This document shows positions 32,090 through 61,496 of a stretch of DNA of 64,000 bases, in pieces. How positions within the stretch are numbered: position 1 is the first letter of the stretch; each line of letters opens with the position of its first letter. Source of the stretch: Pseudomonas sp. 10S4 (GTDB lineage: Bacteria > Pseudomonadota > Gammaproteobacteria > Pseudomonadales > Pseudomonadaceae); NCBI RefSeq assembly GCF_034344865.1, contig NZ_CP133774.1:7006001-7070000 (forward strand). The letters run 5' to 3'. A model generated the notes under the pieces. That model saw only the letters and a list, made by a program, of their open reading frames with translations, ran no database searches and had not been told where the DNA came from. A program made the translations under genes and the position numbers.

Positions 32090-32113
32090 GCCCTTCCCCT
32101 CTGGTTGATCGAC

Positions 32114-35133: not shown

Positions 35134-35153
35134 TCGCCGTTTTCTGCGCACAC

Positions 35154-35184: not shown

Positions 35185-35195
35185 ATGCGTTGTGT

Positions 35196-36376: not shown

Positions 36377-36397
36377 TAATCCTTCGGGGTTGTTATC

Positions 36398-36427
36398 AAG
36401 CCGATCCATTTATGGGTCGGCTTTTTT
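36398..36427 (+). terminator. Rho-independent terminator of oprI
   Basis: AAGCCGA and TCGGCTT arms followed by a T-run, 22 bp after the oprI stop. Confidence 0.9.
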
Positions 36428-36452
36428 ATGCCTGGCGTTTAGTCCCAGGCAT

Positions 36453-36492
36453 AAAAAACCCGCCGACACAGCCTGCGTCGGCGGGTTCTTTT
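36453..36492 (-). terminator. Rho-independent terminator of the L,D-transpeptidase gene
   Basis: AACCCGCCGAC and GTCGGCGGGTT arms flanked by A and T runs, 7 bp beyond the stop on the minus strand. Confidence 0.88.
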
Positions 36493-36498
36493 CAGCGT

Positions 36499-37487: not shown

Positions 37488-37829
37488 GAACGACTAGAGG
37501 TATAAGACGGCGATTGTACACCGACACCCGTAAATTCGGGGAGATCGAGAACATTGCAGGCGATACATGACGTTTTTTTCATGTGGGCTTGTTTGGCGAA
37601 GGGACTTGGCCTAATCCCGATGAATTGAGGACGTCTGGCGTCGAACTCATACCTGTGGCGAGGGGGCTTGCTCCCGCTGGGCTGCGCAGCAGTCCTGAAA
37701 TCAGGCAACTGGTTCTATAGATGGACCACATAATCGGAATTGGGGTCCGCTTCGCGACCCAGCGGGAGCAAGCTCCCTCGCCACAGGGACAATGGTCACC
37801 CGTAACTTACCGGCGCCTGCCACCGCAGT
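37488..37829. other. Intergenic region with a REP pair
   Basis: 342 bases between the L,D-transpeptidase start and the next gene end. Apart from the REP pair at 37654-37785 I see no gene. The transpeptidase promoter should lie at 37490-37600 but no clear hexamers stand out. Confidence 0.5.
37654..37785. repeat. Second-type REP pair
   Basis: TGTGGCGAGGGGGCTTGCTC and its complement as outer arms, with GCTGGG / CCCAGC next to them and a ~75-bp interior. Same family as 17359, 57366 and 63581. Confidence 0.85.
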
Positions 37830-38123
37830 CTAAAGCTCGAAACGCAGTTCCGGCCAGATCGGCGAGGTGCCGCGTTTTTGCGACTCGAGGATGGCCCGGC
37901 ACAACGAGCACAAACGCTGATCCTGAAACACCCTGCGGTCCACACTCGACCAGCGCGGTTGCGCCGGCAGCAAGCTGCCGCAGAGGGTCCGGTCCGCCGA
38001 GCCGCCGAGTTCCAGCTGACGGGTCACCAGATGCACCCGCACTTCCTGGCAGGCGAACAGATCCAGCTGCTCGTCAGGCTCGATCAGTTGGTAGGCAAAA
38101 AGGGACCAGGCGGGACGCGGCAT
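37830..38123 (-). CDS. Conserved hypothetical protein (PA2855-like)
   Basis: A 97-residue cytoplasmic protein without a named domain. It has two cysteine pairs, in LFACQEV and the CxxC of RLCSLCRAIL, which could bind metal. Its place between the L,D-transpeptidase and tesA is conserved in P. aeruginosa (PA2855), which supports it being a real gene. The start at 38123 gives MPRPAWSLFAY. It is 55 bp downstream of the tesA stop on the same strand. Confidence 0.75.
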   Translation of the reverse strand: MPRPAWSLFAYQLIEPDEQLDLFACQEVRVHLVTRQLELGGSADRTLCGSLLPAQPRWSSVDRRVFQDQRLCSLCRAILESQKRGTSPIWPELRFEL

Positions 38124-38178
38124 CGGGGGCTCCAAATCGGGGCGCCACCTTAGCCGAAACACCGCCACTAGAAAAGCG

Positions 38179-38783
38179 TCAAAGCAGCGGTTTCAGTGTC
38201 GGCCAGACATTTTCCAGCAACTGGCCCTGAGCCCCTGCCGCCGGGTGCAGGCCATCGGCTTGCATCAGCTCCGGATGACCGCCGATTCCTTCGAGAAAAA
38301 CGGCACCAGCGGGATCTTTTTCTCGGTGGCCAGGTTGCCGTAGACCTCGGCAAAGGCTTCGGTGTAGCGCTTGCCGTAGTTGGGTGGCAATTGCATGCCC
38401 AGCAACAGGACCTTGGCGCCACTGGCCCGGGAGCTGTCGATCATCGCCGCAAGGTTTTGTTGCAATTGTGTTGGCAGCATTCCGCGCAAGCCGTCGTTGC
38501 CTCCCAATTCGAGGATCACCAACTCGGGTTTATGCTCTGCAAGCAGCGCCGGCAGGCGTGCCTGGCCTCCGGCACTGGTGTCGCCGCTGATGGAGGCGTT
38601 GATCACTTTATCGTCGAAACCTTCGCGCTTGAGCCGTTGCTCAAGCAGCGACACCCACCCCAAACGGGTATCCAGTCCGAAACCGGCGCTGATACTATCG
38701 CCAACGATCAGGACTGTACCCGCCGCTGCGTTCTGGGCCATGCACATCAAGGCCAGGCCAGCACTCAAAAACCACACACGCAT
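38179..38783 (-). pseudogene. tesA: Periplasmic acyl-CoA thioesterase/esterase TesA, frame broken by a one-base deletion
   Basis: A ~201-residue SGNH hydrolase. The signal peptide (LSAGLALMCMAQNAAA) precedes block I GDSISAGFG with the catalytic Ser, the GGNDGLRG block and, only after repair, the GLHP block with the catalytic Asp-His pair. As read, the frame ends early at 38265 after PFFSKESAVIRS. Adding one base near 38295 gives FFLEGIGGHPELMQADGLHP and the normal end NVWPTLKPLL. TesA acts as thioesterase and lysophospholipase in the periplasm. It diverges from an ABC exporter gene, as in P. aeruginosa PA2856/PA2857. Probably a sequence error rather than inactivation. Confidence 0.87.
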
Positions 38784-38793
38784 CGGATTCTCC

Positions 38794-39478
38794 ATGGGCG
38801 CAAGCATTCTCACCGCGAAGAACCTCAGCAAAGTGGTTCCCAGCGCGGAAGGTGAACTGACTATCCTGCACGAACTCAGCCTGGAACTGAACAAGGGCGA
38901 CAGCCTGGCCATCGTTGGTGCCTCCGGTTCCGGTAAATCGACCCTCCTGGGCCTGCTCGCCGGCCTCGATCTGCCGAGCAGTGGCGAAGTCATCCTCGCC
39001 GGCCAGGCCCTGAGCAATCTCGACGAAGATCAACGCGCGCGCATCCGCGCCGAGCACGTGGGTTTTGTCTTTCAATCGTTCCAGTTGCTCGACAGTCTTA
39101 ACGCGCTGGAAAACGTCATGCTGCCGCTGGAACTCGACGGCCGCAAAGACGCCCGGGAGCGCGCCACCGAATTGCTGCAACGAGTTGGCCTGGGCCAGCG
39201 CCTCACCCACTCGCCACGCCAGCTCTCCGGCGGTGAACAGCAGCGCGTGGCCATTGCCCGCGCGTTTGCCGCCGAACCTGACGTGTTGTTTCGCCGACGA
39301 ACCCACCGGCAACCTCGACAGCCACACCGGCGAGCGCATCAGCGACTTGCTGTTCGAACTGAACCAGGAACGCGGTACGACCCTGGTGTTGGTAACCCAC
39401 GACGAACGCCTGGCACATCGCTGCCGGCGCCTGATCCGCCTTGAAGCCGGCCTGCTGGTCGCCCCTCTGGAGCCTTGA
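38794..39478 (+). pseudogene. ABC transporter ATPase (YbbA/LolD family), frame broken by a one-base insertion
   Basis: A ~227-residue MacB/LolD-type ATPase. Walker A GASGSGKST, the Q-loop VFQSFQLLD and the signature LSGGEQQRVAIARAFA are in the first frame. An extra T in a run of three at 39289-39291 shifts it just before Walker B; the second frame continues FADEPTGNLDSHTGERI and the H-loop VTHDERLA to the stop. The stop overlaps the ATG of the permease gene (TGATG), so ATPase and permease form one transporter. The family exports lipids, lipoproteins or unknown envelope substrates. Confidence 0.88.
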
Positions 39479-41982
39479 TGGCACGCTTGCCGCTATTGCG
39501 CCTGTTCAGCCTCGCCATCCGCCAACTGCTGCGCGACGCCCGCGCCGGGGAGCTGCGGGTGTTGTTCTTCGCCTTGCTGGTGGCCGTGGCGGCGAGTACT
39601 GCCATCGGTTATTTCGGCGCCCGCCTCAATGGCGCCATGATGCTGCGTGCCACCGAGTTTCTCGGTGCCGACCTTTTGCTCGAAGGCAGTTCACCTGCGC
39701 GCCCCGAGCAGATCAAAAGCGGTACGGAGTTGGGCCTGGAACATGCGCAGGTGGTGGAATTCTCCAGCGTCATCGCAACGGACAAGGGCATTCAGCTGTC
39801 CAGCATCAAGGCGGCCGACGATGTCTATCCACTGCGCGGCGAACTGAAAAGCGCCCCCACGCCATTTGCCCCGGAAGTTTCCGGCGGCGGGCCAAAACCC
39901 GGCGAAGCCTGGGTCGAAGCACGCCTGCTGACGGCTCTGGATCTGAAGATCGGCGACAGCATCGACGTCGGCATGAAAACCCTCAAGCTGTCGCGGGTGT
40001 TGACGTATGAACCGGACCGCGCCGGCAATTTCTACAGCCTGACGCCGCGCGTGTTGATCAACCTCAGCGACCTTACGGCGACTGGCGTGGTGCAGCCCGG
40101 CAGCCGGGTCAGTTATCGCGAACTCTGGCGCGGCAATGCCCAGTCGCTGGAAACCTATCGGCAACTGGTCAAGCCGGGCCTCGCCGCCAACCAGCGCCTG
40201 CAAGATGCCCGGGATGGCAACCGACAGATCGGTGGTGCACTGGGCAAGGCCGAGCGCTACTTGAACATGGCCAGTCTGGTGGCGGTTTTGCTGTCCGGTG
40301 TGGCCGTGGCACTGTCAGCGACACGCTTCGCCATGCGTCGATTCGATGCCAGCGCCTTGCTGCGCTGTCTGGGTCTGTCCCGTCGGGAAACCATGCTGCT
40401 GTTCAGTTTGCAGCTGACAGTGCTTGGCTTGCTCGCCAGCCTCAGCGGCGCCCTTCTCGGCTGGTTGGCGCAACTCGGGCTGTTTGCGCTGCTGCATGAC
40501 TTGCTGCCCACTGACGTTCCACCGGGCGGCTTGCTGCCAGCCATTGCCGGGATCGGCACCGGGCTGGTGGCACTGGCCGGTTTCGCCCTCCCACCGCTGG
40601 CCGCCCTTGGCCGGGTACCGCCATTGCGCGTATTGCGTCGAGACATGCTGCCAATCCCGTCCAGCACCTGGATGGTCTATGGCGCGGCGCTGGGCGCACT
40701 CGGGTTGATCATGTGGCGTTTGAGTCTGGACCTGGTGCTGACCTTCGCCCTGCTGGGCGGTGGCGTGATCGCTGCGGTAGTGCTCGGCGGCTTGCTGCTG
40801 TTGCTGCTCAATAGCCTGCGTCGAATGTTGGCCCGTGCGTCATTGCCGTGGCGCCTGGGTCTGGGCCAACTGCTGCGTCATCCATTGGCGGCCGCTGGCC
40901 AATCCCTGGCCTTCGGTTTGATTCTGCTGTCCATGGCGCTGATTGCATTGCTGCGCGGCGAGCTGCTGGACACCTGGCAGAACCAGTTGCCGAAAAACGC
41001 ACCGAATTATTTCGCGCTGAATATTCTCCCGGCGGACAAACAGGCGTTCACCGATCGCCTGATCGAACTGTCGGCACAATCGGCGCCGCTGTACCCGGTG
41101 GTACCAGGCAGGCTGATCAGTATCAATGGCGAAGCGGTGCAGGACATCGTCAGCAAGGATTCGGCCGGTGACCGGGCGATCCAGCGTGACCTGAGCCTGA
41201 CTTGGGCGGCGGACCTGCCAGCGGGCAACAAGCTCACTTCGGGAACCTGGTGGACCGAACAAACGCCGGAGGATGTTCCCGGTGTGTCGGTGGAAGGCAA
41301 GGTTGCCGAGAGCCTGAAGCTCAAGCTGGGCGATCATCTGGTGTTCACCGTCGGCGGGGTCAATCGCGAAGCGAAAGTCACCAGCCTGCGGGAGATCAAC
41401 TGGGACAACTTCCAGCCGAACTTCTTCATGATCTTTCAGCCTGGCACGTTGAAAGATCTGCCCGCGACCTACCTCACCAGTTTTTATCTGGCAGCCGGTC
41501 ACGATCAGCAGATTGTCGATCTGTCCCGGGCGTTCCCGGCGGTCACCATTCTGCAAGTTGAAGCCTTGCTGGAACAGCTGCGCAGTATCCTTGCCCAAGT
41601 CACCCTGGCGGTGGAATACGTGTTGTTGTTCGTGCTGGCGGCGGGCATGGCCGTGCTGTTCTCCGGCCTGCAAGCAACACTGGATGAACGAATTCGCCAA
41701 GGGGCGCTGTTACGCGCCCTAGGGGCCGAGCGCCAATTGCTGGTCAAGGCCCGGCGCATCGAGTTCGGCTTGCTCGGCGCCGTCAGCGGCCTGCTGGCGG
41801 CCCTGGGTTCGGAGCTGGTCAGCCTGGTGCTTTACCGTTACGCCTTCGACCTGCCCTGGCACCCGCATCCGTGGCTGCTGGTGCTGCCATTGATCGGTGC
41901 CGTGCTGATTGGTGGCGCCGGTGTGTTCGGTACGCGTCGCGCCCTGAACGCCAGCCCGCTGACAGTCCTGCGCGAGGGTTGA
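39478..41982 (+). CDS. ABC transporter permease, FtsX/YbbP family
   Basis: An 834-residue inner-membrane permease of the YbbP type, with a large periplasmic domain after the first membrane helix (~22-45), a first FtsX bundle (~260-420), further helices (~400-480), a second periplasmic domain (~500-690) and a C-terminal FtsX bundle (~690-830) ending [13 protein letters not shown]. It works with the ATPase encoded just upstream (ATG overlaps the TGA). E. coli ybbAP lies divergent from tesA in the same way, so the link to TesA is ancient, but the substrate remains unknown. Confidence 0.92.
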
Positions 41983-42016
41983 TAGACTCCAGCACTCTCT
42001 ACCACAAGAAGTCGCC

Positions 42017-42514
42017 ATGAGCCGTTATCGCCCTCCCCGCACCGCTGGCACCGCGCTGATCACCCCCGAAGGTGAAGCGCGGATGCGTGCCGAGTTTCAC
42101 GAACTCTGGCACGTGCGCCGACCGCAGGTAACGCAATCGGTCAGCGAGGCAGCGGCCCAGGGTGATCGCTCGGAAAATGCCGAATACACCTACGGCAAGA
42201 AAATGCTGCGCGAGATCGACAGTCGTGTGCGTTTTCTCACCAAACGACTGGAAGCCCTGAAAGTCGTCAGCGAAAAACCCAGCGATCCGAACAAGGTGTA
42301 TTTCGGCGCCTGGGTGACGATTGAAGATGAGGACGGCAAAGAGTCGCGCTATCGCATTGTCGGCCCGGACGAACTGGACCTCAAACTGGGACTGATCAGC
42401 ATTGATTCGCCACTGGCCCGCGCCCTGATCGGTAAGGCGCTGGACGCAGAAGTCCGGGTCCAGACACCCACCGGTGAGCAGTGCGTGTATATCGTGGCGA
42501 TCGAGTATCTGTAG
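42017..42514 (+). CDS. greB: Transcript cleavage factor GreB
   Basis: A 165-residue Gre factor. The N-terminal coiled coil has the acidic tip [18 protein letters not shown] that reaches into the RNA polymerase active site, and the C-terminal FKBP-like domain has the GreB form of [25 protein letters not shown] (in parts) ending with the hydrophobic IVAIEYL. It restarts backtracked polymerase by stimulating RNA cleavage. It begins 34 bp after the permease stop in the same direction. Confidence 0.95.
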
Positions 42515-42526
42515 CGTCCTGAAACC

Positions 42527-42835
42527 TCAGCGCCGGGTAATCAACCCTTGTCGAGCGACACGGGTTAATTGTTTGATCACTTCGGGCGCATCTTCAAGGC
42601 TCGGCGACTGAATCACCGCCAGATCAAAACTGTCGTTGGCAAACCGAGCCAGTGACTCACCATCTTCGACAAACTGGATCAGGAAAGCTGCGGGGCCGCC
42701 AGTACGACGTGGCCAGCCGTCGAGATAACGCAGAAGCGTCGGCTGATGTTTGCCGCCAAGCAGGATTTTTGGATTGCGCTGGGTGAGGTGTGCCGTGATC
42801 GGCGCGGGGCGTACAACGGGGCTTAGTGCATTCAT
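42527..42835 (-). CDS. Conserved hypothetical protein
   Basis: A 102-residue protein that I do not recognise. The sequence looks globular with one cluster like a strand-helix unit (FDLAVIQSPSLEDAPEVIKQLTRVAR) and no membrane segment or metal motif. The start at 42835 is used because the preceding seven codons lack support; no strong ribosome site is visible. It converges on greB, with stops 12 bp apart, and about 250 bp without genes lie upstream. Confidence 0.6.
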   Translation of the reverse strand: MNALSPVVRPAPITAHLTQRNPKILLGGKHQPTLLRYLDGWPRRTGGPAAFLIQFVEDGESLARFANDSFDLAVIQSPSLEDAPEVIKQLTRVARQGLITRR

Positions 42836-43038
42836 TGGGTCGTGTCTCTGCCTCAAAAGTCTGCATGGCAGGTGAGAGGCAACACCGAACCAGCGCTTTA
42901 GCGGTATTTCGAAGCCTGTTTCAAGCTTCTATCGGCAACTGGATGAGTCACCTGGCGCCCCGCAAGTAGCTGTTTAAATCGGCGCATGAGCAACATCCTA
43001 GAGAACGTGACCGGACAGTGTCAAGAATCCCGAGCAAC

Positions 43039-43083: not shown

Positions 43084-43518
43084 TCAGCCGGCGATGGCGC
43101 GGTCTGCTGAAAGCTTGCCGGCGCCTTCGATCAGCACCGCGATGCTGCCACCGAGCAAAGCCAGGGCAAACTCGTAGCCATTGTTGGCCAAGAACAGACC
43201 GTTATGGATGTGCACCGAGAAGATCGCCACCAGTGAGAGGAAGGTCAGCCCCAGTGCCGCCGGACGAACCAGCAAACCGATGATCAAGGCCAGACCAGCG
43301 AAGAATTCCGTACCACCCGCCAGGATCGCCATCAGGTGACCCGGTGCAAGGCCAAGGCTTTCCATGTACTGCGCGGTGCCGGCAATCCCGTAACCACCGA
43401 ACATTCCGAAGAGCTTCTGCGAACCGTGAGCCGCGAAGATAATGCCGACGAAAATACGCAGAACAGTCAGGCCGTAGCCAGCGCGGGTAAACAGTACCTT
43501 GTTGATCAGAGTGCTCAT
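43084..43518 (-). CDS. DoxX-family inner-membrane protein
   Basis: A 144-residue protein with four membrane helices (about 15-35, 55-72, 76-95 and 105-125). The DoxX signature is visible in LRIFVGIIFAAHGSQKLFG near the N-terminus and GGTEFFAGLALIIGLL in the middle. DoxX proteins are linked to quinone-dependent oxidation or to redox homeostasis in different bacteria; no specific role can be assigned. Its own terminator suggests a single-gene unit. Confidence 0.9.
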   Translation of the reverse strand: MSTLINKVLFTRAGYGLTVLRIFVGIIFAAHGSQKLFGMFGGYGIAGTAQYMESLGLAPGHLMAILAGGTEFFAGLALIIGLLVRPAALGLTFLSLVAIFSVHIHNGLFLANNGYEFALALLGGSIAVLIEGAGKLSADRAIAG

Positions 43519-43623
43519 GCTGTGTCATCCATTGTGAGTATGTGTGTTGGTTGGCCGCCATATTAATCTGAAAATCGAATGATAAAAGCGGAAATATCCC
43601 ACCATAACAATCAGTTTAGTCGA

Positions 43624-45045
43624 TCATTTTCGCGAGACCACTTTTTGCCCTTTAGGCTCCAACGACTCCCGCTCCCGATCAAACGCCAAGTAATACTTGT
43701 TCACGCTATTAACATAGCTGACGGCGCTCATCCCCACTTGCTCCATGGCAATGCGCTCGACCTGAAAGAACCACTGATTAGGGTTCAAACCCCGTCGCCG
43801 GGCCTCAGCACGCATGCCCTGAACCCGTTCCGGCCCCATGTTGTACGCCGCCAGCACGAACGCCATCCGTTCGCGCTCGTTGAGTTTGGGGCTGGAGAAG
43901 AATTTTCGGCGGATCATCGCCAGGTACTTGGCCCCTGCCTGCACATTGGCGTCGAGGTTCTGCACATTGTTGACCCCGACCCGCTGTGCCGCCGACGGGG
44001 TGATCTGCATCAAGCCAGTGGGGCCACCGCCACTGCGGGCCTCGGGTTGCAGCGCCGACTCCTTAAACGCCAACGCCGCCAGGTTCAACCAGTCCATGCC
44101 TTGGGCATCAGCGTGTTTTTGCAACACCGGCCGGAGTTTTTCCAGCCGCTCCCGATCGGCCTTCGCCAACGGATAGTGCACTTGATACAGGCGCCGGTAG
44201 ATCCGCAGAAACGCCACGTCCTCATCCGACGGTTTCTTGTAGGTGGTCAGGAAGCGATCAATGCTCGCCCGCAACATCGAGGCATCGCGGCGCACGAACC
44301 AGTATTCCTCGCCGGGCGCACCGATCAGCACCTGCCGATCAAACCGCAGCTTGGGCAGAATCTTGCCCCAGCGCTCGGCGATCGGCTGCTCGACGATGGT
44401 CAGGTGGAAGATGCCACCCTGGACCATCTCCAGCACGTCCTCAACCGCCAGGCTCGGGTCGACCCACTCAACCTTTACCGGTGCCAGTTTGTGCAAGGCG
44501 AGCTTTTGATTGATCTGACTGACCGCGTCCCCGGCCGCACTGCCCGTGGGCAATGCCAGGGTTTTGCCAGAGAGTTGTTCGAGATGGGTGTAACGTCGTT
44601 CACCCTTGATGCCGACCAGGATCAGCGGCACGTTGCTGGCAATCGGTTCGCTGGTACTCACGGCGTGGCCGGATTGCGGATCGAGCAATTCCCCGGGAGC
44701 CACCAGATCGCCCTCGCCGCGCTGCAACGCGCCGAGCAGTTGATCCTTGGCTTTGGGGATGATCTTGAGGGTGATTTCCTGGCCGTCACGTGCGTGGCCA
44801 TTGAGGTATTGCTCGAAGGCCCGCAGGCGATGGTACTCGACACCGATGGCCTGGCCCTCAACTTCACCGGAGCTGTTACGGCTCTGATTGACCAGGACCT
44901 TCAGCACGCGGCTGCTGCGGATTGCCGCCAGATCGCGGACCTGGGTGGACGGCACGGCTTGCAGCGGCCCGGCGAGGCGCGCAACCGCCGGCATCGGCAG
45001 CAGCAACGAACAACACAGCAGTAGCAAAACCGAGGGACGTGTCAT
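43624..45045 (-). CDS. Membrane-bound lytic murein transglycosylase, MltF-like
   Basis: A 473-residue exported protein: signal peptide (LLLLCCSLLLPMPAVA), an N-terminal solute-binding-protein-like domain (~45-290), and a C-terminal SLT domain (~320-450) with the catalytic Glu in ALAFKESAL and the GGGPTGLMQITPSAA and AAYNMGPERV motifs. This is the MltF layout, in which the binding domain regulates peptidoglycan cleavage. The lipobox-like cysteine pair LLCCS is followed by a peptidase site, so lipid anchoring is uncertain. It matches P. aeruginosa PA2865. Confidence 0.9.
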   Translation of the reverse strand: MTRPSVLLLLCCSLLLPMPAVARLAGPLQAVPSTQVRDLAAIRSSRVLKVLVNQSRNSSGEVEGQAIGVEYHRLRAFEQYLNGHARDGQEITLKIIPKAKDQLLGALQRGEGDLVAPGELLDPQSGHAVSTSEPIASNVPLILVGIKGERRYTHLEQLSGKTLALPTGSAAGDAVSQINQKLALHKLAPVKVEWVDPSLAVEDVLEMVQGGIFHLTIVEQPIAERWGKILPKLRFDRQVLIGAPGEEYWFVRRDASMLRASIDRFLTTYKKPSDEDVAFLRIYRRLYQVHYPLAKADRERLEKLRPVLQKHADAQGMDWLNLAALAFKESALQPEARSGGGPTGLMQITPSAAQRVGVNNVQNLDANVQAGAKYLAMIRRKFFSSPKLNERERMAFVLAAYNMGPERVQGMRAEARRRGLNPNQWFFQVERIAMEQVGMSAVSYVNSVNKYYLAFDRERESLEPKGQKVVSRK

Positions 45046-45282
45046 CCACTCTCCGGAAAGAATACTGGTCCGGCTTCAGGGTAAATTCCGTGAAGCAAAA
45101 CGACAGAAACAGAGCGCCTGGAGCGCTGGCAAAGTGCGAAAGACTGGCACAGTGATGGCAGTTTCACCAACCCGACCTGTCTCGCGGCATCAAAAGACAG
45201 CTTTAACTCGTTGTAGTTCTTGGCTTTTCTTATAAATCTACAGCTCTGATATGCTTTCCGGCCTTTGGTCCGAGGTAGCACC

Positions 45283-46092
45283 ATGCAACTCATCGATATC
45301 GGCGTCAACCTGACCAACCCCAGTTTCGACGATAAACACCAGGCCGTACTCGACCGCGCCTACGCTGCCGGGGTCTGCCAATTGGTGCTCACCGGGACCA
45401 GTGTCGACGGCAGCGAACAGGCTCTGGAACTGTGCCGGCAACTGGACGAAAGCGCGCAACGGCTGTTCGCCACCGCCGGCATTCACCCGCACTCCGCCAG
45501 CGACTGGAATGCCGATAGCGAGCGGCGCCTGCGCAGTTTGCTCAAAGAGCCGAACATGGTGGCCGTGGGCGAATGCGGGCTGGATTTCAATCGCGACTTC
45601 TCGCCGCGTCCGCAACAGGAAAAGGTCCTCGAAGAACACCTGGCCATGGCGGTCGAACTGCAATTGCCGGTGTTCCTCCATGAACGCGATGCCAGTCAGC
45701 GCTTGCTCGAAATCCTGCGCGACTACCGTGATCAGTTGCCAGCCGCCGTGGTGCATTGCTTCACCGGCGAAAAGAAAGCGCTGTTCAGTTACCTCGACCT
45801 GGATTTGCACATCGGCATCACTGGCTGGATCTGTGATGAACGACGGGGCACGCACCTGCATCCGCTGGTGAAAGAGATCAAGCGCGGACGCTTGATGCTG
45901 GAGAGTGATGCACCGTACTTGCTGCCGCGCAGTCTAAGGCCCAAGCCAAAGAACGGGCGCAACGAGCCGGCTTATCTGACCGAGGTGTTGCGCGAAGTGG
46001 CGTTGCATCGCGAGGAAAGTGAAGAAGACCTGGCGGCTCATACCACTGCTTGCGCCCGGGCATTCTTCGGCCTGCCTACGTTCCCCCAGTAA
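45283..46092 (+). CDS. tatD: TatD-family 3'-5' DNA/RNA exonuclease
   Basis: A 269-residue TIM-barrel metallohydrolase. The metal-binding residues are visible in the N-terminal LIDIGVNL (where the usual HxH is reduced, as in TatD itself), [35 protein letters not shown] and LESDAPYLL. The GIHPH and [10 protein letters not shown] forms are those of TatD proper. It degrades damaged single-stranded DNA or RNA. ATG 45283 has GAGGT 7 bp upstream; the frame is open six codons further to a GTG at 45265. Confidence 0.9.
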
Positions 46093-46105
46093 CACCTAAA
46101 TCCCC

Positions 46106-46194
46106 TGTGGGAGCGGGCTTGCTCGCGAAGGCGGCAGCACATCCAACATTGATGTGACTGACACACCGCTTTCGCGAGCAAGCCCGCTCCCACA
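46106..46194. repeat. REPIN with long conserved spacer
   Basis: Inverted REP units with a ~40-bp spacer containing CATTGATGTGACTGACACAC. The spacer closely matches the REPIN at 24680. Confidence 0.9.
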
Positions 46195-49095: not shown

Positions 49096-49235
49096 GAAAA
49101 CCTCAGAACGCGGAAAAGGATGAAGGGATCTTAACCAGCCTCTGAGGGCGGCACAGCGCTTATTCCGGCCAAAAGCACTGACAGATGAGCCGCGTTTGGC
49201 TCTAACACACCTTCCAAACTCAAACACAAAACCAA

Positions 49236-49325
49236 TGTGGGAGCGGGCTTGCTCGCGAAAGCGGTCTGTCAGTCAACTTTGATGTTGAATGTATCGACCT
49301 CTTCGCGAGCAAGCCCGCTCCCACA
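49236..49325. repeat. REPIN with long spacer
   Basis: Inverted GTGGGAGCGGGCTTGCTCGC units with a ~40-bp spacer containing TTTGATGTTGAATG, a diverged relative of the spacers at 24680 and 46106. Confidence 0.88.
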
Positions 49326-49342
49326 TTTGATCCGTGGTGTTC

Positions 49343-50111
49343 TCAGGATTTGAAGCAGGCAGCGCTTAGTTTATCGAGCACTCGGTCGGCACGCCTTTCA
49401 GCCTGGGTCATGGTGGTTTTCCAGACCGCGACGCAGGATTGTAAATCCGCTTCCTGTTCCGCCCGCAGCAGCCACTGCCAGCAGTCGTGCCAATCACCCA
49501 GCGCGGCCTGGGCCGATTTGAGTCTGGGCATGGCGGCTTTGGGTAAACGGTCGAGTTCGGGATAGGCCTCGATGCCATAGCGCACGCGCTTGATCAACAA
49601 GCGCAGCAAATGACGATCATGGGCCGGGTCGTGCAGGGTGTGGTCGAGTTTCTTCCACTGTTTGGCCAGGCGCTTTTCGATGCGCTTGCGCAAGCCCTTG
49701 AGCAACCCCTGACGCTGGGACGCGCGCAGGAAGCGCGGAAACGCGTCGAGGATCATCAGCAATTGAATGACTTCAGGGCTGGTCGCGACCGTCGGATAAG
49801 CCACGTCCATTTGCGCCATGCGCCGCTTTCGCCGCCTCGGGTTGACCATGTTCAAGCAGGTACGCCGCCAACACTTCGCGATCGCGCAGCGGCGTGGTCA
49901 GTTGACCGACCCCGGACGCCGCCACTTCCAGTTGCTCGACCCCAGGTAAACCACGAAGGGGCCGCAACAGGCTGCGCAAACGGCGCACCGTGGTGCGCAA
50001 TTCGTGCAATGCTTCAGGGTCGGTACGGGCAGTCAAGCGTGCCTGACAGGCCAGCAAACGGACTTCCAGGCTCAGAACCTGAGCCACCAATCGGTCAACC
50101 AAGGCAGACAT
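49343..50111 (-). pseudogene. CHAD-domain protein, frame broken by a one-base insertion
   Basis: About 255 residues when repaired. The first frame starts MSALVDRLVAQVL and has the CHAD helix ALHELRTTVRRLRSLLRPLRG, then runs off after EAAKA near 49830. The second frame resumes with RMAQMDVAYPTVATSPEVIQ and the second CHAD half (DRHLLRLLIKRVRYGIEAY, ALGDWHDCWQW). CHAD domains are helical, histidine-rich polyphosphate-binding modules. The indel is in CGCCGC-type repeat DNA at 49818-49830 and needs one base removed (or two added). It is likely a sequence error. Confidence 0.8.
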
Positions 50112-50197
50112 CGTTTGCTCCCTGAATCGAATTCCCTACGGCACTCGATGCATCTTGCCTGTATCGAAGCTCGCCGCCATTGAGCTACATCATAGTC

Positions 50198-50476
50198 TTA
50201 ACGGCCCGCGCGGGATTCACGAATGTAGAAACGCGCCTTCTCGGCTTTGCTGGTGCAACCTTCGTAGGCTTCAAATTGCTGTTGGGTCTTGGCGCCGGTC
50301 AACAGCGACAGGGCCTTGGAGTAACTGACGGTGCCGGCGAAACCTTCGGCCTTGGCCAGGTCCAGTTCATGCCAGGCCGCATCAATCTGGCTGCCACAAC
50401 TGTCACGGTACGCAGTTTTCCCAGCACAACCGGCCAGCGCCAGGGCAATCAAAGGCACACAGATCCAGGCTTTCAT
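50198..50476 (-). CDS. Small putative lipoprotein
   Basis: A 92-residue protein with a lipoprotein signal peptide and lipobox LALAGC, cleaved before Cys17. The mature part is helical with two further cysteines (RDSCGSQ and YEGCTSK) that may pair. I do not recognise a named family; similar small lipoproteins are annotated as hypothetical in pseudomonads. The start at 50476 is the signal-peptide Met. Confidence 0.8.
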   Translation of the reverse strand: MKAWICVPLIALALAGCAGKTAYRDSCGSQIDAAWHELDLAKAEGFAGTVSYSKALSLLTGAKTQQQFEAYEGCTSKAEKARFYIRESRAGR

Positions 50477-53240: not shown

Positions 53241-53939
53241 CTAAAGACTGTCCTCGTTCAACAACCGATACCCCACCCCCGCCTCGGTCACGATAAACCG
53301 CGGCTGAGTCGGATCATCTGCGAGTTTCTGGCGCAAATGCCCAACCACAATCCGCAGGTAATGACTGTCCTCGGTATGGGTCGGCCCCCAGATGTCCTTG
53401 AGCAATTGCTGCTGGGTGATGACCCGCCCCGGATGCCGCGCCAGTTGCGCCAGCACCGCGTACTCCTTGCGGGTCAGCGCGACTTCAACACCGTCGAGCA
53501 ACACTCGGCGATACGCCAGGTCTACGGTCAGCGGGCCGAACGTCAGGGCCGCTTGCTGAGCCTCACCGGCCGGCGCCTGTCGCAACAACGCCCGAACGCG
53601 CGCGAGGAATTCCTGAATGCCAAACGGCTTGGTCACGTAATCGTTGGCGCCGCCATCCAGCGCTTCAACCTTCTGCCCTTCGCTGGCGCGCACCGACAGC
53701 ACCAGCACCGGCACCGTCGACCATTCGCGAAACTCGCGCAGCACTTGCTGGCCGTCCATGTCCGGCAGCCCCAGGTCGAGCACCAGCAGATCGGGTTTGT
53801 TCAGCGCCGCTTGCGCCAAACCTTCGTTGCCAGTGCCGGCCTCCAGCACTTTGTAGCCCTGGGAGGCGAGGCTGATGCGCAGGAACTTGCGGATCTGCGG
53901 TTCGTCGTCGATGACCAAAATGGTCGCGGTCTGGCTCAT
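53241..53939 (-). CDS. kdpE: Potassium-responsive response regulator KdpE
   Basis: A 232-residue OmpR-type regulator. The receiver domain has DDE near residue 11, phospho-acceptor Asp55 in LLVLDLGLPD and Lys in VTKPF; the C-terminal winged helix includes LTRKEYAVLAQLARHPG and HTEDSHYLRIVVGHLRQKL. It is phosphorylated by KdpD and activates kdpFABC under potassium limitation. It is 48 bp downstream of kdpD, the last gene of the cluster. Confidence 0.96.
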   Translation of the reverse strand: MSQTATILVIDDEPQIRKFLRISLASQGYKVLEAGTGNEGLAQAALNKPDLLVLDLGLPDMDGQQVLREFREWSTVPVLVLSVRASEGQKVEALDGGANDYVTKPFGIQEFLARVRALLRQAPAGEAQQAALTFGPLTVDLAYRRVLLDGVEVALTRKEYAVLAQLARHPGRVITQQQLLKDIWGPTHTEDSHYLRIVVGHLRQKLADDPTQPRFIVTEAGVGYRLLNEDSL

Positions 53940-53987: not shown

Positions 53988-56639
53988 TCAGGCTTCACTT
54001 TCGTAGCCCGGTTGCGCCTGCAACGGCAGGTGCAAGGTGATGCAGGTGCCACGCCCTTCAATGCCATCGGCAACGCTGATCCGCCCACCATGGGCGCCGA
54101 CCATGCCCTGACAAATCGCCAGCCCCAACCCCGTGCCCTGCCCGCCACGATCACCACGCGCGGCGGTGTAGAACATGTCGAAAATCTTCGCTCGCTCGTC
54201 CTCCGGAATCCCCGGGCCTTCATCGCTGACGGAAAAAAACAGCTCGCTGTCATCGGCCCCGGCGCGCACTTGCAGGCGTCCGTGAACCGGTGAAAACCGC
54301 GCGGCGTTTTCGATCACGTTGACCAGCGCCTGTTCGATCAATGCCGCATGCACGTACAGCAGCGGCAGCTCGGCCGGCACTTCGGTGCTGACCTGCAACG
54401 GCGCCAACACCGCGCGCAGGCGATTGAGCGAACTGCCGACGATATCGGCGGGCGACACCCAGTCCCGGGCCAGTTTCAGCGCGCCGTGACCGAGGCGGGT
54501 CATGTCCAGCAGGTTTTGGATGTAGCGGTCGAGACGCTCCGCTTCATCGCGGGTGCCTTCGAGCAGCTCGCGGCGATCCTCCAGCGGGATCGCTTCGCCG
54601 AGGGCCAGCAGGCTGTCGATGCTGCCACGCATGGAAGTCAGCGGCGTGCGCAAATCGTGGGACACCGAGGCCAGCAAGGCACTGCGCAGTTGCTCGGTTT
54701 CACCGTGCAGCCGCGCTGCTTCGAGGTCTTCGGCCAATTGTGCACGGGCCAGGGCCTGGGCCAATGGCTGGCTCAGCGCAGTCAGCAAACGCCGGCGCTG
54801 GCCGCTCAAGGTCTGGCCTTCTTTGGCGCAGACACCGAGCAACGCCAGCGGCCCATCTTCGACCGACAACGGCCACCACCACCAACGCCCGAACGGCAGC
54901 GTGCCGGTGCCGGCGCCCGCCGGCTGATCGTGTTGCCAGGCCCAATCGGCAGCGGCACGTTCGGCCTCGGAGAACTCCAGCGGACCGCCGGTTTCGACTT
55001 TCCAGCCACCCTGCCCGTCGCGGTTGAGCAGGCACAGTTGCAGATCGCTCCAACCATTCAAATGCTGGGCGGCGGCACTGACCACGGCCTGGCGGTCGGT
55101 GGCGGCGGTGAGTTTGCGCGACAGGTCGAGCAGTTCGGTGGTTTCTTCCTGTGTGTCGCGCAAAGCCTCCAGTTGTCGACGTTGCCGCGCGGCGAGGTTG
55201 CCGGTGAGCGCCGCCATCAGCAGGAAAAACAGCAACGTCAGGACGTCTTCTTCGCGCTGGATGGCGAACGAGAAGTTTGGCGGTATGAACAAAAAGTCGT
55301 AGGTCAGAAACGACAACGCCGCACAGGCCAGCGCCGGGCCAAGGCTGCTGCGCACCGCCACCAGCAACACGGCGGCAAGGAACACCAGGGAGATATTCGG
55401 CAGCGGCAAAACACTTGCCACTGCCCAGGCCAAAGCACTGGCCAAAACGGTTGCCACCAAGGCCAGCGCGTAGTCGAACCAGACCAATGAATGCGCCGAA
55501 CGCTGACGGGTTGCGGGCACTTCATGGTCGCTGTCGAGGACGTTGATTTCCAGCCCACGGGCATCGCGCAACAAGCGTGACGCCAGACCGCCGCCGAACA
55601 CCCTTCGACGCAAACGCTGGCGCGACTGACCGACCAACACCAGGCTCGCGCGACGTTCGGCGGCGTGCTGGATCAGGGTTTTCGCCACCTCGCCGGCCCG
55701 CAGCAACACCACTTCGCCGCCGAGGCGCTCGGCCAGTTGCTGGGCGCTTTGCAGGCGCAGGCGCGATTGCTCGTCGCGCACGCTGCCGTTGTCCACATGC
55801 ACCAGGCTCCACGGCAAATGCCGACGCTGGGCGACGCGGCTGGCGTGACGCACCAGACGTTCGGCCTGAGCATCGCCATCGACCCCGACCAACAAGCGAC
55901 CGCGCACCGCAGGTGCCGCCTGGCCGAGCTGGCGATAACCCTGGGCCAGATCATCATCGACCTGAGCCGCAGCGGTTTGCATGGCCATTTCACGCAGGGC
56001 GGTGAGGTTGGTTTGCGTGAAGAACGCATCGATGGCCGCCCGCGCCTGCTCCGGCACGTAGACCTTGCCATCGCGCAGACGCTCCAGCAATTCCCGGGGC
56101 GGCAGGTCGATCAAGAGCAGTTCGTAGGCTTCTTGCAGGACCCAGTCCGGCAGGGTTTCGCGGACCTGGACGCCAGTGATGCCGCGCACCTGATCGTTGA
56201 GACTTTCCAGGTGCTGGACGTTGACCGTGGTGTACACGTCGATGCCGGCGGCCAGCAGTTCCTGGATATCTTGCCAGCGCTTGGCGTGACGACTGCCGGG
56301 GGCGTTGCTGTGGGCCAGCTCATCGACCAGCACCAGTTTCGGCTTGGCTTTGAGCAGGCCGTCGAGGTCCATCTCTTCAAGCATCACGCCACGGTATTCC
56401 GAGCGCACCAGCGGTTGTTGCGGCAAGCCACCGAGCAGCGCTTCGGTTTCGGCGCGGCCATGGGTTTCGACCACGCCAGCGATGATTTTCACGCCTTGGC
56501 GCAGTTGGGTGTGGGCCGCTTCGAGCATGGCGTAGGTCTTGCCGACGCCCGGTGCGGCACCGAGGAACACCTTGAGCCGGCCACGGCCATCCCGAGGCAG
56601 ATCTGCTAACAACGCATCGGCGCGGCCGGAGTCACTCAT
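53988..56639 (-). CDS. kdpD: Potassium-sensing histidine kinase KdpD
   Basis: An 883-residue kinase with the full KdpD plan: N-terminal KdpD domain with Walker A GAAPGVGKT (28-36), a Usp-like domain (~250-370), four closely spaced membrane helices (~395-495), a GAF-like region, and HisKA (His in SVSHDLRTPLTSMRGS, ~660) with HATPase_c (ALVNVIENAARFS, GPGIPEDE, GTGLGLAICQ). It controls the phosphorylation of KdpE in response to low potassium and turgor-related signals. A REPIN separates it from kdpC. Confidence 0.96.
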   Translation of the reverse strand: MSDSGRADALLADLPRDGRGRLKVFLGAAPGVGKTYAMLEAAHTQLRQGVKIIAGVVETHGRAETEALLGGLPQQPLVRSEYRGVMLEEMDLDGLLKAKPKLVLVDELAHSNAPGSRHAKRWQDIQELLAAGIDVYTTVNVQHLESLNDQVRGITGVQVRETLPDWVLQEAYELLLIDLPPRELLERLRDGKVYVPEQARAAIDAFFTQTNLTALREMAMQTAAAQVDDDLAQGYRQLGQAAPAVRGRLLVGVDGDAQAERLVRHASRVAQRRHLPWSLVHVDNGSVRDEQSRLRLQSAQQLAERLGGEVVLLRAGEVAKTLIQHAAERRASLVLVGQSRQRLRRRVFGGGLASRLLRDARGLEINVLDSDHEVPATRQRSAHSLVWFDYALALVATVLASALAWAVASVLPLPNISLVFLAAVLLVAVRSSLGPALACAALSFLTYDFLFIPPNFSFAIQREEDVLTLLFFLLMAALTGNLAARQRRQLEALRDTQEETTELLDLSRKLTAATDRQAVVSAAAQHLNGWSDLQLCLLNRDGQGGWKVETGGPLEFSEAERAAADWAWQHDQPAGAGTGTLPFGRWWWWPLSVEDGPLALLGVCAKEGQTLSGQRRRLLTALSQPLAQALARAQLAEDLEAARLHGETEQLRSALLASVSHDLRTPLTSMRGSIDSLLALGEAIPLEDRRELLEGTRDEAERLDRYIQNLLDMTRLGHGALKLARDWVSPADIVGSSLNRLRAVLAPLQVSTEVPAELPLLYVHAALIEQALVNVIENAARFSPVHGRLQVRAGADDSELFFSVSDEGPGIPEDERAKIFDMFYTAARGDRGGQGTGLGLAICQGMVGAHGGRISVADGIEGRGTCITLHLPLQAQPGYESEA

Positions 56640-56771: not shown

Positions 56772-57317
56772 TTACAGTTTTTCCAGCGCGATGTTCAACG
56801 CCAACACATTAACCACCGGTGGCCCCACCAATGGTCGCTCGATGTTTGCATTCATCAGTTGTTCAACCGTCGCCACCGGCAGGTTACGCGCAGCTGCAAC
56901 ACGCGCCAGTTGATAGGCAATCGCTGCCGGTGGCAAGTGTGGATCGAGGCCGCTGCCGGAGGTGGTCAGCATCGCCAACGGCACCGGGCCCTGGCCTGGC
57001 ACGATCAGTTTGTTGGCATCGTCGATCACTCGAGTGGCCAGCGCCGGGTTGCTCGGCGAGAGGTTGCTGGCGCTGCTCGACACGGTGGCAAACGCACCTG
57101 CCGATGGCCGTGGATGGAACCAGGCGTCGCCGACGAAAACCTGGGCAATCAGCGACGAGCCACGGACCTTGCCGTCGGCGTCACGCACCAGGCTGCCATT
57201 GGCCTGGTCCGGGAAGGCGACCTGAGCCACGCCGGTGACCACCAAGGGGTAAGCGACGCCAGTGATCAGCGTCATCAGGACCAGCAGGCTCAGGGCCGGA
57301 CGTATCATTGTGGACAT
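56772..57317 (-). CDS. kdpC: Potassium-transporting ATPase subunit KdpC
   Basis: A 181-residue single-pass subunit. The membrane helix is at ~8-30 ([21 protein letters not shown]), followed by the periplasmic domain with the conserved [20 protein letters not shown] and [13 protein letters not shown] motifs. KdpC stabilises the KdpFABC complex and raises its ATP affinity. The start at 57317 gives [12 protein letters not shown] pairs flank the gene on both sides, an unusual feature inside a tightly functional operon. Confidence 0.95.
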
Positions 57318-57365
57318 TTCAAAATCCTCGAATTCGGAAAATACTGTGAAGGCACACACATCACC

Positions 57366-57496
57366 TGTGGCGAGGGAGCTTGCTCCCGTTCGGCTGCGAA
57401 GCAGTCGTCAACCCGGCGAATGCGCTTTGCCTGAACAAACGCGGTGGCTGGGATGGGGCTGCTTCGCAGCCCAGCGGGAGCAAGCTCCTCGCCACA
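57366..57496. repeat. Second-type REP pair between kdpB and kdpC
   Basis: TGTGGCGAGGGAGCTTGCTC and its complement as outer arms with GGCTGCGAAGCAG / CTGCTTCGCAGCC inside. It fills most of the kdpB-kdpC gap. Confidence 0.87.
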
Positions 57497-57525
57497 AAAA
57501 GCAGCTCCCACCCACCCGTTAACTG

Positions 57526-59584
57526 TTAAACCAAATGCAACGCCGTCAACACCATGTCGATCGCCTTGATGCCCACGAACGGCACCAGAAGCCCGCCCAG
57601 GCCGTAGATCAGCAGGTTGCGGCTGAGCACGCTCGCGGCGGCGGCCGGACGGTAGGTGACTCCGCGAAGCGCGAGCGGGATCAGTACGACGATGATGATC
57701 GCGTTGAAGATGATGGCGGACAGGATCGCCGAGGCTGGCGAGTGCAGCTGCATCACGTTCAGCACGGCGAGGCCGGGGAAGACCCCTGCGAACATGGCCG
57801 GGATGATCGCGAAGTACTTGGCGATGTCGTTGGCGATCGAGAAGGTGGTGAGGGCGCCGCGGGTGATCAGAAGCTGTTTGCCGATTCGGACGATATCGAT
57901 GAGCTTCGTCGGGTCAGAGTCGAGGTCGACCATATTGCCGGCCTCCTTCGCGGCGCTGGTGCCGGTGTTCATCGCGACCCCGACGTCGGCCTGGGCGAGT
58001 GCCGGTGCGTCGTTCGTTCCGTCGCCCGTCATGGCGACGAGATTGCCGCCCTCCTGCTCACGCCGGATGAGGGCGAGCTTGTCCTCTGGGGTGGCCTCGG
58101 CGAGGAAGTCGTCGACGCCGGCTTCCGCTGCGATCGTCTTGGCGGTCAGCGGGTTGTCGCCGGTCACCATGATCGTGCGGATGCCCATGCTGCGCAGTTC
58201 GGCGAAAACGCTCACGAATGCCAGGCTTGACCACGTCCTTGAGGTGGATCGCACCGAGCAGTTTGCCTTCGGCGCAGACCAGCAACGGAGTGCCACCGCT
58301 CTGGGCGATCTTGTCGATTTCCCGGGACAGCGACGGCGCCAAATCAGCACGTTTCAGACCGACGAAGGCCAGCAATGAATCCACCGCGCCTTTGCGATAC
58401 ACGCGGCCTTGATGGTCGACACCGGACAGGCGAGTTTCGGCGCTGAACGGCACCGCCGTCAGCAGCTCAGGGCTTGGCTCTGGCTGCGGATGCAGGCCAC
58501 GCAGGTACTCGACGATGGATTTGCCTTCAGCCGTGTCGTCGGCCAGCGAGGCAAACAACGCACCTTCGGCCAGTTCCTTGGCGGTAACACCCGGTGCCGC
58601 GTAAACGGCGGTGCAACGACGGTTACCGAAGGTGATGGTGCCGGTCTTGTCCAGCAGCAGGACGTGCACGTCCCCCGCCGCTTCCACGGCGCGACCGGAT
58701 TTGGCGATCACATTCAAGCGAACCAGGCGGTCCATGCCGGCGATACCGATGGCGGAAAGCAGGCCGCCGATGGTGGTCGGAATCAGCGTGACCAACAACG
58801 CCACCAGGAACACCAGCGGCAGGCTGCCGTTGGCGAAGTGGGCGAACGGTTGCAGGGTGACGACCACCAGCAGGAAGATCAGCGTCAGGCCGATCAGCAG
58901 GATGTCGAGCGCCACTTCGTTCGGGGTTTTCTGACGTTTGGCGCCTTCGACCAGAGCGATCATGCGATCGAGGGTCGACTCGCCAGGGTTGGCAGTAATG
59001 CGTATCAGCAGCCAGTCGGAGACCAGGCGGGTGTTGCCGGTGACGGCCGAACGGTCACCGCCGGACTCACGAATCACCGGCGCGGACTCACCGGTAATTG
59101 CCGCTTCGTTGACCGCCGCGATGCCTTCAATCACCTCGCCGTCACCGGGGATCATTTCCCCGGCTTCGACGCGCACCACATCATCCTTGCGCAGGCTGGT
59201 GGCCGGCACCACTTGAAAGGTGCCGTTGGAGGTTTTGCGGCGGGCACTCAAGCCTTCGCTGCCGGCCTTGAGGCTGTCGGCGCGGGCCTTGCCCCGACCT
59301 TCGGCCAAGGCTTCGGCGAAGTTCGCGAACAGCACGGTAAACCACAGCCACAGCGCGATTTGCGCCGCGACGAAGGTCGGCACGCTGCCGTCGGGAATGA
59401 AGCACAGCACGGTGGTCAGGATGGCGGTCAGTTCGACCACCAGCATCACCGGCGCACGCTGCAATTGCCGAGGGTCGAGCTTGACGAAGGCTTGCACCAG
59501 CGCCGGGCGCCACAGGGCCGACATCGCAGTTTTCGGTTGTTCCGGCGCCTTGACGATCACCGGTTTATTTACGGGCATATTCAT
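57526..59584 (-). pseudogene. kdpB: Potassium-transporting P-type ATPase subunit KdpB: frame broken by a one-base insertion and 3' part of foreign type
   Basis: KdpB is the ATP-hydrolysing subunit of the KdpFABC pump. The first frame gives a Pseudomonas-type N-terminus, membrane helices, the TGES loop (ITGESAPV) and phosphorylation site DKTGT (Asp ~312). An extra A in a run of four at 58205-58208 breaks it after [11 protein letters not shown]. The other frame continues [30 protein letters not shown] and the last helices to LTALHLV. From about 58200 to 57610 the codons change: 11 of 21 Leu are CTC, Glu is mainly GAG, Lys mainly AAG, and the protein ([27 protein letters not shown]) looks actinobacterial. 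The last ~25 codons look Pseudomonas-like again. Repaired length is ~685, as expected. Confidence 0.85.
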
Positions 59585-59595: not shown

Positions 59596-61290
59596 TTAGA
59601 AGCCCATGCTCAAGTGTTCGGCAATCGGACCCAGCGCCAACGTCGGCAAGAAGGTCAGGCCACCCACGAGCAAAATGGTCACAGTCAACAAGGTCACGAA
59701 CAACGGGCCATGCGTCGGGAAGCTGTTCTGGCCAATCGGTGCGGTTTTCTTCATCGCCAGGCTGCCGGCCAATGCCAGAACCGGGAGGATGTAACCGAAG
59801 CGACCGATCAACATGCCAAGACCGAGCATCAGGTTGTGGAACGGGGTGTTGGCACTCAGACCGCCGAATGCCGAACCGTTGTTGGCACTGGCCGAGGTGT
59901 AGGCGTACAGCAACTGACTGAAACCATGCGGGCCAGGGTTACTGATGGCACCGGCAGGTCCCGGCAGGCTGGCGGCGATTGCACCCAGCACCAGCACGCC
60001 GACCGGCATCACCAGCAAGGTCACGACCAACAATTGCACTTCCTTGGCTTGAAGTTTCTTGCCGAGGTATTCCGGTGTGCGGCCGATCATCAGGCCGGCG
60101 AGGAACACCGCGATCAACACGTTCAGCAACATGCCGTAGAGCCCGGCACCGACGCCGCCGAAGATCACTTCGCCGACCATCATGTTGACCAGTGCGACCA
60201 TGCCGCTCAGCGGGTTAAGGCTGTCATGCATGCCGTTGACCGAACCGTTGGACGCCGCGGTGGTAGTCACCGACCAGAGCACGGTGGCGGTGGTACCGAA
60301 GCGCGCTTCCTTGCCTTCCAGCGGTGCGGTCTGTTCGACGGCAGCGTTGGCCAGCGCAGGGTTGGGTTGGTATTCAGCCCACATCGACGTCGCGCCGCCG
60401 ATCAGGAACAGCGCCAGCATGCAGGCGATGATCGCGCGGCTCTGACGCAGGTCTTTCACGTAATGACCGAAGGTGAACACCAGGGCGACCGGGATCAGGA
60501 TGATCGAACCCATTTCAAACAGGTTGCTCCACGCGGTCGGGTTTTCGAACGGATGCGCCGAGTTCACGCCGAAGAAGCCACCACCGTTGGTGCCCAGTTG
60601 CTTGATCGCAATCTGGCTGGCGGCCGGGCCAAGCGGGATCACTTGATCGACGCCTTGCATGGTCACGGCATTCACGTAGTGCGCGAAGGTTTGTGGCACG
60701 CCCTGCCAGACCAGATACAGCGCCAGCAGCAAGCAGATTGGCAGCAGGCCGTAGAGGGTGGCACGGGTCATGTCGACCCAGAAGTTACCCAAGGTCTTGG
60801 TGGACTTGCGACCGATACCGCGGCACAGGGCAACCAGCACGGCGAGGCCGGTGGCGGCGCTGACGAAGTTCTGCACGGTGAGGCCGGCCATCTGACTCAG
60901 GTAGCTCAAGGACGCTTCACCGCTGTAGGACTGCCAGTTGGTGTTGGTCATGAAGCTGATGGCGGTGTTGAACGCCAGCGTCCACTCTTGACCCGGCAGG
61001 TTTTGCGGGTTGAGCGGCAAGTGGTCCTGGAACAACAGGATCGCGAACAACAGCAAGAAGCCCGCAAGGTTGAAGGCGAGCAAGGCCAGGGTGTATTTCT
61101 GCCAGCTCTGTTCTGCCTGCGGGTCTACCCCGGCTACGCGATAACAGCCGCGCTCCACCGGGCCAAGGATCGGTGACAGCCAAGTGCGCTGCCCCTCCAT
61201 CACCTTGTAGTAAAAACGCCCCAGAAACGGTGCCGGAATCAGCACCAGGGCGAAGAAGGCCAGGATCAGCCAATAGTCATAACTGTGCAT
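59596..61290 (-). CDS. kdpA: Potassium-transporting ATPase subunit KdpA
   Basis: A 564-residue potassium channel-like subunit with about ten membrane helices and four selectivity-filter loops. The filter-like segments SFMTNTNWQSYSGE, GTNGGGFFGVNSAHPFENPT (20 residues), TTTAASNGSVNGMHDS and SASANNGSAFGGL are all visible. It binds and translocates K+ with KdpB. The start at 61290 gives MHSYDYWLIL. It begins 8 bp after kdpF, and kdpB starts 11 bp after it. Confidence 0.97.
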   Translation of the reverse strand: MHSYDYWLILAFFALVLIPAPFLGRFYYKVMEGQRTWLSPILGPVERGCYRVAGVDPQAEQSWQKYTLALLAFNLAGFLLLFAILLFQDHLPLNPQNLPGQEWTLAFNTAISFMTNTNWQSYSGEASLSYLSQMAGLTVQNFVSAATGLAVLVALCRGIGRKSTKTLGNFWVDMTRATLYGLLPICLLLALYLVWQGVPQTFAHYVNAVTMQGVDQVIPLGPAASQIAIKQLGTNGGGFFGVNSAHPFENPTAWSNLFEMGSIILIPVALVFTFGHYVKDLRQSRAIIACMLALFLIGGATSMWAEYQPNPALANAAVEQTAPLEGKEARFGTTATVLWSVTTTAASNGSVNGMHDSLNPLSGMVALVNMMVGEVIFGGVGAGLYGMLLNVLIAVFLAGLMIGRTPEYLGKKLQAKEVQLLVVTLLVMPVGVLVLGAIAASLPGPAGAISNPGPHGFSQLLYAYTSASANNGSAFGGLSANTPFHNLMLGLGMLIGRFGYILPVLALAGSLAMKKTAPIGQNSFPTHGPLFVTLLTVTILLVGGLTFLPTLALGPIAEHLSMGF

Positions 61291-61298
61291 AGCCGCTC

Positions 61299-61388
61299 CT
61301 AGTTCCGATCCGCGCGCAACAGCGCAACCAACAGATAAATGAACAGCCCCACTGCCAGTAGCAGTGACACCCCGTCCAGAACGCTCAT
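61299..61388 (-). CDS. kdpF: KdpF, small stabilising subunit
   Basis: A 29-residue peptide, MSVLDGVSLLLAVGLF then IYLLVALLRADRN, a single membrane helix. Length and sequence type match KdpF, which stabilises the KdpABC complex. It is the first gene of the operon, 8 bp before kdpA, and an AGTTCTCCG (minus strand GGAGAACTT) ribosome site lies 5 bp before the ATG. Confidence 0.9.
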   Translation of the reverse strand: MSVLDGVSLLLAVGLFIYLLVALLRADRN

Positions 61389-61474
61389 GGAAGTTCTCCG
61401 TGTTACGGCGTATTGCCGCGTGTGGAGTCATTGTCCGCAGGGTGGCTGTAAAGGAACGAGACCGAGGGGTGTGA

Positions 61475-61496
61475 CGGGGCATAAAGAAAGCGTAAA
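61475..61496 (-). promoter_or_regulatory. Candidate KdpE binding site upstream of kdpFABC
   Basis: On the minus strand the site reads TTTA-CG-CTTT-C-TTTA-TG-CCCCG. From memory, the E. coli KdpE site has the same blocks TTTA, CTTT, TTTA and CCCCG with identical spacing (17 of 22 positions). It lies about 87 bp before the kdpF start, the right place for an activator site. Confidence 0.6.

Follow-up and report, generated by a model that had tools for sequence, protein, structure and literature searches.

In homeologous recombination, or intragenic lateral transfer, a short foreign tract replaces the homologous part of a gene. Sequences of two organisms may also meet in the data of a contaminated culture. 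In the part of one such account that is relevant here, a Vibrio culture was contaminated by other bacteria, and the mixed assembly was resolved into bins on the basis of coverage, GC and gene taxonomy (PMC10845552). The main text of that account nowhere uses the word stem 'chimer'.

In this study, we analyzed a window of 64,000 nucleotides (bases 7006001-7070000 of a one-contig Pseudomonas genome of 7,270,762 bases, or 7.27 Mb) that contains the gene for KdpB, the P-type potassium-transporting ATPase subunit (family profile TIGR01497). First, two parts of this gene jointly span the profile of the family, but the assembled gene is a frameshifted composite of two genera and probably not what the cell encodes. 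Second, in contrast with homeologous recombination, the foreign sequence comes from one donor and is found again in all six 16S genes, in 23S and in pstB, which is not a biological pattern. Finally, the case resembles cross-contaminated assemblies from non-axenic cultures, as far as PMC10845552 illustrates them, in that sequences of a second organism would be present in the data of a presumed pure culture; however, the foreign sequence here lies inside genes of a single finished contig, whereas there a mixed assembly was binned.

Results

Structure of the assembled kdpB gene

The kdpB gene lies between kdpA and kdpC on the minus strand, running from 59584 to 57526 (Table 1). Its first open reading frame stops at 58058, and the remainder continues in another frame down to 57526. 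The NCBIfam KdpB profile TIGR01497 matched the first part with 558.2 bits (profile positions 9-460 of 675) and the last part with 412.2 bits (positions 454-675 of 675), against a cut-off of 527.9; no full-length match was found in one reading frame of the assembled gene, in which the frameshift splits the profile match. The original prediction had correctly noted a frameshift near an edge of the unusual piece but had assigned it to the left one; it is located at the higher-coordinate edge (58204-58208), which is the 5' edge of the piece in the sense of the gene. Since homopolymer-type indels occur in the window, a sequencing error is a likely cause. The frameshift was dropped as proof of illegitimate joining, given a similar one-base insertion at 39292 and the common homopolymer indels in the window.

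Table 1. Coordinates of the features discussed; positions without a contig name refer to the window.
Feature	Position	Strand	Remarks
kdpB as assembled	57526..59584	-	Cryobacterium middle between Pseudomonas ends; frameshift of one base at about 58204-58208
kdpB, Pseudomonas-type part (first two thirds)	58209..59584	-	compared with G237 over 58250-59584
kdpB, Cryobacterium-type piece	57600..58204	-	matches G681 (L151); edges uncertain by about 10-20 bases
kdpB, Pseudomonas-type 3' end	57526..57593	-	compared with G237 and G681 over 57526-57592
kdpA	59596..61482	-	undisturbed Pseudomonas gene; longest open reading frame, true start may lie downstream
kdpC	56772..57317	-	undisturbed; protein 99.5% identical to G237; NF001454, 230 bits
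kdpD, sensor kinase	53988..56639	-	undisturbed; protein 99.9% identical to G237
kdpE, response regulator	53241..53939	-	undisturbed; protein 98.3% identical to G237
second kdpB	G000:C1:6380290-6382136	+	diverged (67%)
pstB	G000:C1:1634860-1635669 (L197:14860-15669)	-	Pseudomonas ends, Cryobacterium middle
16S rRNA, six copies	G000:C1 50423-51952, 706773-708302, 1068202-1069731, 1886334-1887863, 2679674-2681203, 6913354-6914884		all mosaics
one-base indels relative to G237	29165, 29270, 29827, 36421, 36452, 37015, 38300, 39292, 47859

The gene was compared at the DNA level with an ordinary kdpB, supplied by the same-species genome G237, and with that of the Cryobacterium genome G681 (Micrococcales, Microbacteriaceae). 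Identity to G237 was 99.3% at 58250-59584, fell to 71.7% at 57600-58203 and was 98.5% over the final 67 bases (1 base different), versus 60.3%, 99.7% and 49.3% to G681 in the same parts. The original prediction, which had described the first two thirds as Pseudomonas and the end of the gene as reverting to that type, is borne out on both points. The shift in codon choice that it had reported is also present: CTC accounts for 11 of 20 Leu codons in the piece versus 6 of 59 upstream (11 of 21 had been predicted, one codon off), GAG for 5 of 7 Glu codons versus 8 of 26, and AAG for 5 of 6 Lys codons versus 10 of 20. The GC content at third codon positions was 0.89 in the piece and 0.78 upstream in kdpB.

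The piece had been placed at 57610-58200, which was approximately right; it is slightly wider, with its left edge at about 57594-57621 and its right edge at about 58190-58208. In the alignment with G237 and G681, both edges fall in or beside short runs common to the two parents. The parents align without indels within the piece, which is clean and in register, and no garbled stretch was found in kdpB in the three-way alignment. Outside the piece, the window and G237 are identical from about 59980 to 58737. Differences between the two are present at 58652-58736 (10, the window base being present in 1 to 24 of 30 Pseudomonas relatives) and at 58226-58244 (4, the window having the majority base of these relatives, 23-27 of 30), and none of them looks foreign. 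The Cryobacterium tract is absent from G237, the one other same-species genome found.

Rest of the kdp operon

The other kdp genes are undisturbed (Table 1). The KdpA protein is 100% identical to that of G237 over 628 residues (TIGR00680, 747.8 bits), and two further genes are presumably kdpD and kdpE, as judged from their sequence and position. A contig-level misjoin, in which overlapping sequence led the assembler to insert a contig of Cryobacterium into that of Pseudomonas, would agree with the location of both kdpB edges in or beside runs common to the parents. However, Pseudomonas sequence resumes after 600 bp, the rest of the operon is 98-100% identical to G237 in protein, and the six 16S genes described below alternate between the parents in blocks, where a misjoin would switch once and stay; such an event is therefore highly unlikely. 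Thus, of the earlier suggestion of a chimeric join in a mixed assembly, the artefact is supported but the contig join is not, since the contig runs on uninterrupted at either side and its consensus appears to have been overwritten.

The kdpB-kdpC spacer (57340-57525) gave no alignment with the G237 spacer, though the operon is otherwise near-identical, and looks repeat-rich. The second, diverged kdpB of the same genome has a longest open stretch of 497 residues (in L002), is without the N-terminal part and may be split too.

Donor of the kdpB piece

The piece is identical to Cryobacterium G681 at 602 of 604 bases, with two substitutions. In a protein search restricted to the piece, all 196 of 196 residues were identical to the named Cryobacterium KdpB proteins P0001-P0003, and the KdpB of G681 is 100% identical to P0003, which is labelled Cryobacterium. 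When the 198-residue piece was searched against the genome collection, the best 80 of 590 matches all had actinobacterial names (80/80, phylum judged from titles). At the DNA level, a search of the family to which a Frigoribacterium belongs (398 genomes) gave at most 85% among the matches listed. One of these genomes, G664, is a Cryobacterium by its KdpB (100% identical to P0113), and its genus was then searched: 56 of 57 genomes matched the piece, the best being G681 (96% over 681 bases including flank). On sequence identity, the donor is a Cryobacterium close to G681, and chance is no explanation for 602 identical bases out of 604. The Micrococcales character assigned to the piece by the original prediction is thus confirmed and narrowed to Cryobacterium. 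The two substitutions are as expected of another Cryobacterium strain, whether the piece was acquired naturally or by artefact.

We also considered that the piece might come from another Pseudomonas, or from gene conversion by the second kdpB that the genome does contain. The piece shows 74% identity to that second copy and at most 77% to any non-own match among those listed from 249 genomes of the genus, versus 99.7% to G681. We give this origin practically no credence, and the chimera survives the comparison with Pseudomonas kdpB genes. A plasmid source was rejected (best plasmid match 82%, Nonomuraea), as was a phage source: nine phage records matched, with 65-71% identity over part of the piece among the matches listed (five).

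Altogether 7974 proteins above threshold share the piece. None of the best 120 of these 7974 had a Pseudomonas-type N-terminus (best 54.9% identity), in a collection clustered at 90% identity, where a Pseudomonas cluster could conceal a true chimera from another strain.

Cryobacterium blocks in the rRNA genes

A 16S family search found six copies in the same contig, scoring 1499.5-1520.4 bits, compared with 1611.2 bits for G237 and 1603.1 bits for Cryobacterium G681 (single copy found in each). All six are Pseudomonas/Cryobacterium mosaics, with the G681 base at 190-211 of the 344 sites that separate G237 from G681. Over columns 270-985, the six copies match G681 at 694-695 of 695-696 positions and G237 at 570-571 of 715-716, and over columns 988-1040 they match G237 at 51 of 53. 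In the first and sixth copies, the 5' portion is mostly Pseudomonas up to about column 235; the next 122 sites in a row (columns 274-982) are of Cryobacterium type, all but one of those at 991-1036 are of Pseudomonas type, and the remainder are mainly Cryobacterium, the sixth copy having more Pseudomonas sites near its 3' end. The 3' parts vary among the six copies.

The one 23S copy that was aligned (L285:10151-13053) alternates as well, with 165 Cryobacterium sites, 573 Pseudomonas sites and 10 that are neither, out of 748. The six own 23S copies scored 2677-2727 bits, and the full matches in G237 scored 2906, 2892 and 2692. Low 23S bit scores were dropped as evidence on their own, the G237 copy at 2692 being within the range of the own copies. 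The low-scoring copy and several apparent 23S fragments lie at C1:1137424-1140301, 1850024-1851924 and C2:386191-387433 of G237, and this reference is not flawless itself.

Codon scan of the genome and pstB

Codon use was scanned in the window and in 120 segments of 20 kb from across the genome (2.46 Mb in total, about a third of the genome). A six-frame scan for Cryobacterium-like codon use, which could miss tracts shorter than about 330 bp, gave 13 windows above threshold; pstB (19.9) and kdpB (18.6) ranked highest, and the third scored 13.2. Two scans based on open reading frames had both placed pstB first. The known kdpB piece was outside the top 30 of 1942 frames in the earlier one, and in the second it was only 6th of 1689, and in an antisense frame, a consequence of the gene being split by the frameshift.

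Sequence and neighbouring genes suggest that the top-ranking gene is pstB; its middle is almost identical to G681 and contains a one-base frameshift. About 40 columns fit neither parent, and these coincide with indels between the parents. Such garble would arise when a consensus is forced through reads that do not match, whereas recombination would copy either parent.

The mosaics thus have sharp block edges and one donor, and they recur in unrelated conserved loci of a contig with long-read-type indels. These data bear on a natural cross-phylum homologous (homeologous) replacement, in which 600 bp of kdpB would have been exchanged after uptake of Cryobacterium DNA by a Pseudomonas cell. Such an exchange would account for a clean, in-register piece bounded by short shared stretches; Cryobacterium is known from cold habitats and could meet Pseudomonas there; and the window shows other short replacement-like tracts relative to G237, of which the two tested are of Pseudomonas type. 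On the other hand, a single, nearly identical donor would have to account for independent or concerted replacements at kdpB, pstB, 23S and six 16S genes, and the ribosome would have an actinobacterial 16S core. In addition, the pstB piece has a stretch matching neither parent, and the kdpB piece is nearly identical to a modern genome. Under natural replacement the rRNA and other core genes should be vertical, but here 16S and 23S are mosaic with the same donor. Because 16S, 23S and pstB of the same contig also hold Cryobacterium blocks, natural recombination is very improbable, and the cross-phylum exchange offered by the original prediction is unsupported. Recent cross-phylum homeologous recombination as a real source of Cryobacterium tracts in the strain's kdpB, pstB and rRNA genes appears exceedingly unlikely.

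Quality of the contig and other differences from G237

Relative to G237, the window has nine distinct one-base indels, each isolated within sequence that otherwise matches (Table 1); 7 are homopolymers shortened in the window and 2 are insertions. Shortened homopolymers are a signature of long-read consensus without full correction. The indels at 38300 and 39292 appear to break open reading frames, which from their translations look like tesA and an ABC-transporter ATPase, respectively.

Short tracts that are 23-36% different from G237 in near-identical surroundings were also seen at 354-745, 1251-1692, 7585-8089, 32594-33148 and 49187-50366. Two of them, 7585-8089 and 32594-33148, were rejected as foreign, since all 17 Pseudomonas genomes searched match them (best 82% and 86%, respectively) and none of 4 Cryobacterium genomes does. 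To judge from these matches, both are ordinary Pseudomonas variation, and not every divergence from G237 is foreign. Block order differs between window 1-46115 and G237:C2:78001-127650: window 23232-43029, which matches parts of G237:C2:78001-100096, lies between 4603-12613 and 43084-46115, which are neighbours in G237. This difference reflects either a rearrangement or a misassembly.

Discussion

Our results indicate that the kdpB chimera is almost certainly an artefact of consensus building from contaminant Cryobacterium reads. Three observations are those expected of a contaminant chimera. First, the foreign tract has a near-perfect match in a present-day genome of another organism (602/604 to G681). 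Second, the same donor occurs at unrelated conserved loci (all six 16S genes, the one aligned 23S copy and pstB). Third, garble or indels are found where the parents misalign (about 40 columns in pstB; one-base frameshifts in kdpB and pstB), with shortened homopolymers elsewhere in the window.

We infer that Cryobacterium DNA or reads close to G681 were mixed into the data behind the Pseudomonas contig. At conserved stretches, such as the rRNA genes, kdpB and pstB, foreign reads may have mapped to the draft of the Pseudomonas genome and decided the base call; alternatively, they may have shared a collapsed graph edge with it. The software step would thus be either mis-mapping at polishing or a collapsed graph edge, and Cryobacterium sequence would have replaced that of the contig between two short stretches common to both genomes. 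Some points count against such an artefact. The parents of the kdpB piece share only about 72% of their bases, and why kdpB and pstB were affected is unexplained; moreover, the genome table lists a contamination of only 1.23%, with a completeness of 99.55%.

A finished one-contig genome in which all six 16S genes are chimeric and two or more protein genes contain foreign tracts would be misleading in 16S databases, in phylogenies and in searches for horizontal transfer; its completeness and contamination figures gave no strong flag. For the biology of the organism the finding has no import: the kdpB of the strain is most likely of the ordinary Pseudomonas kind. The value of the finding is that of a warning.
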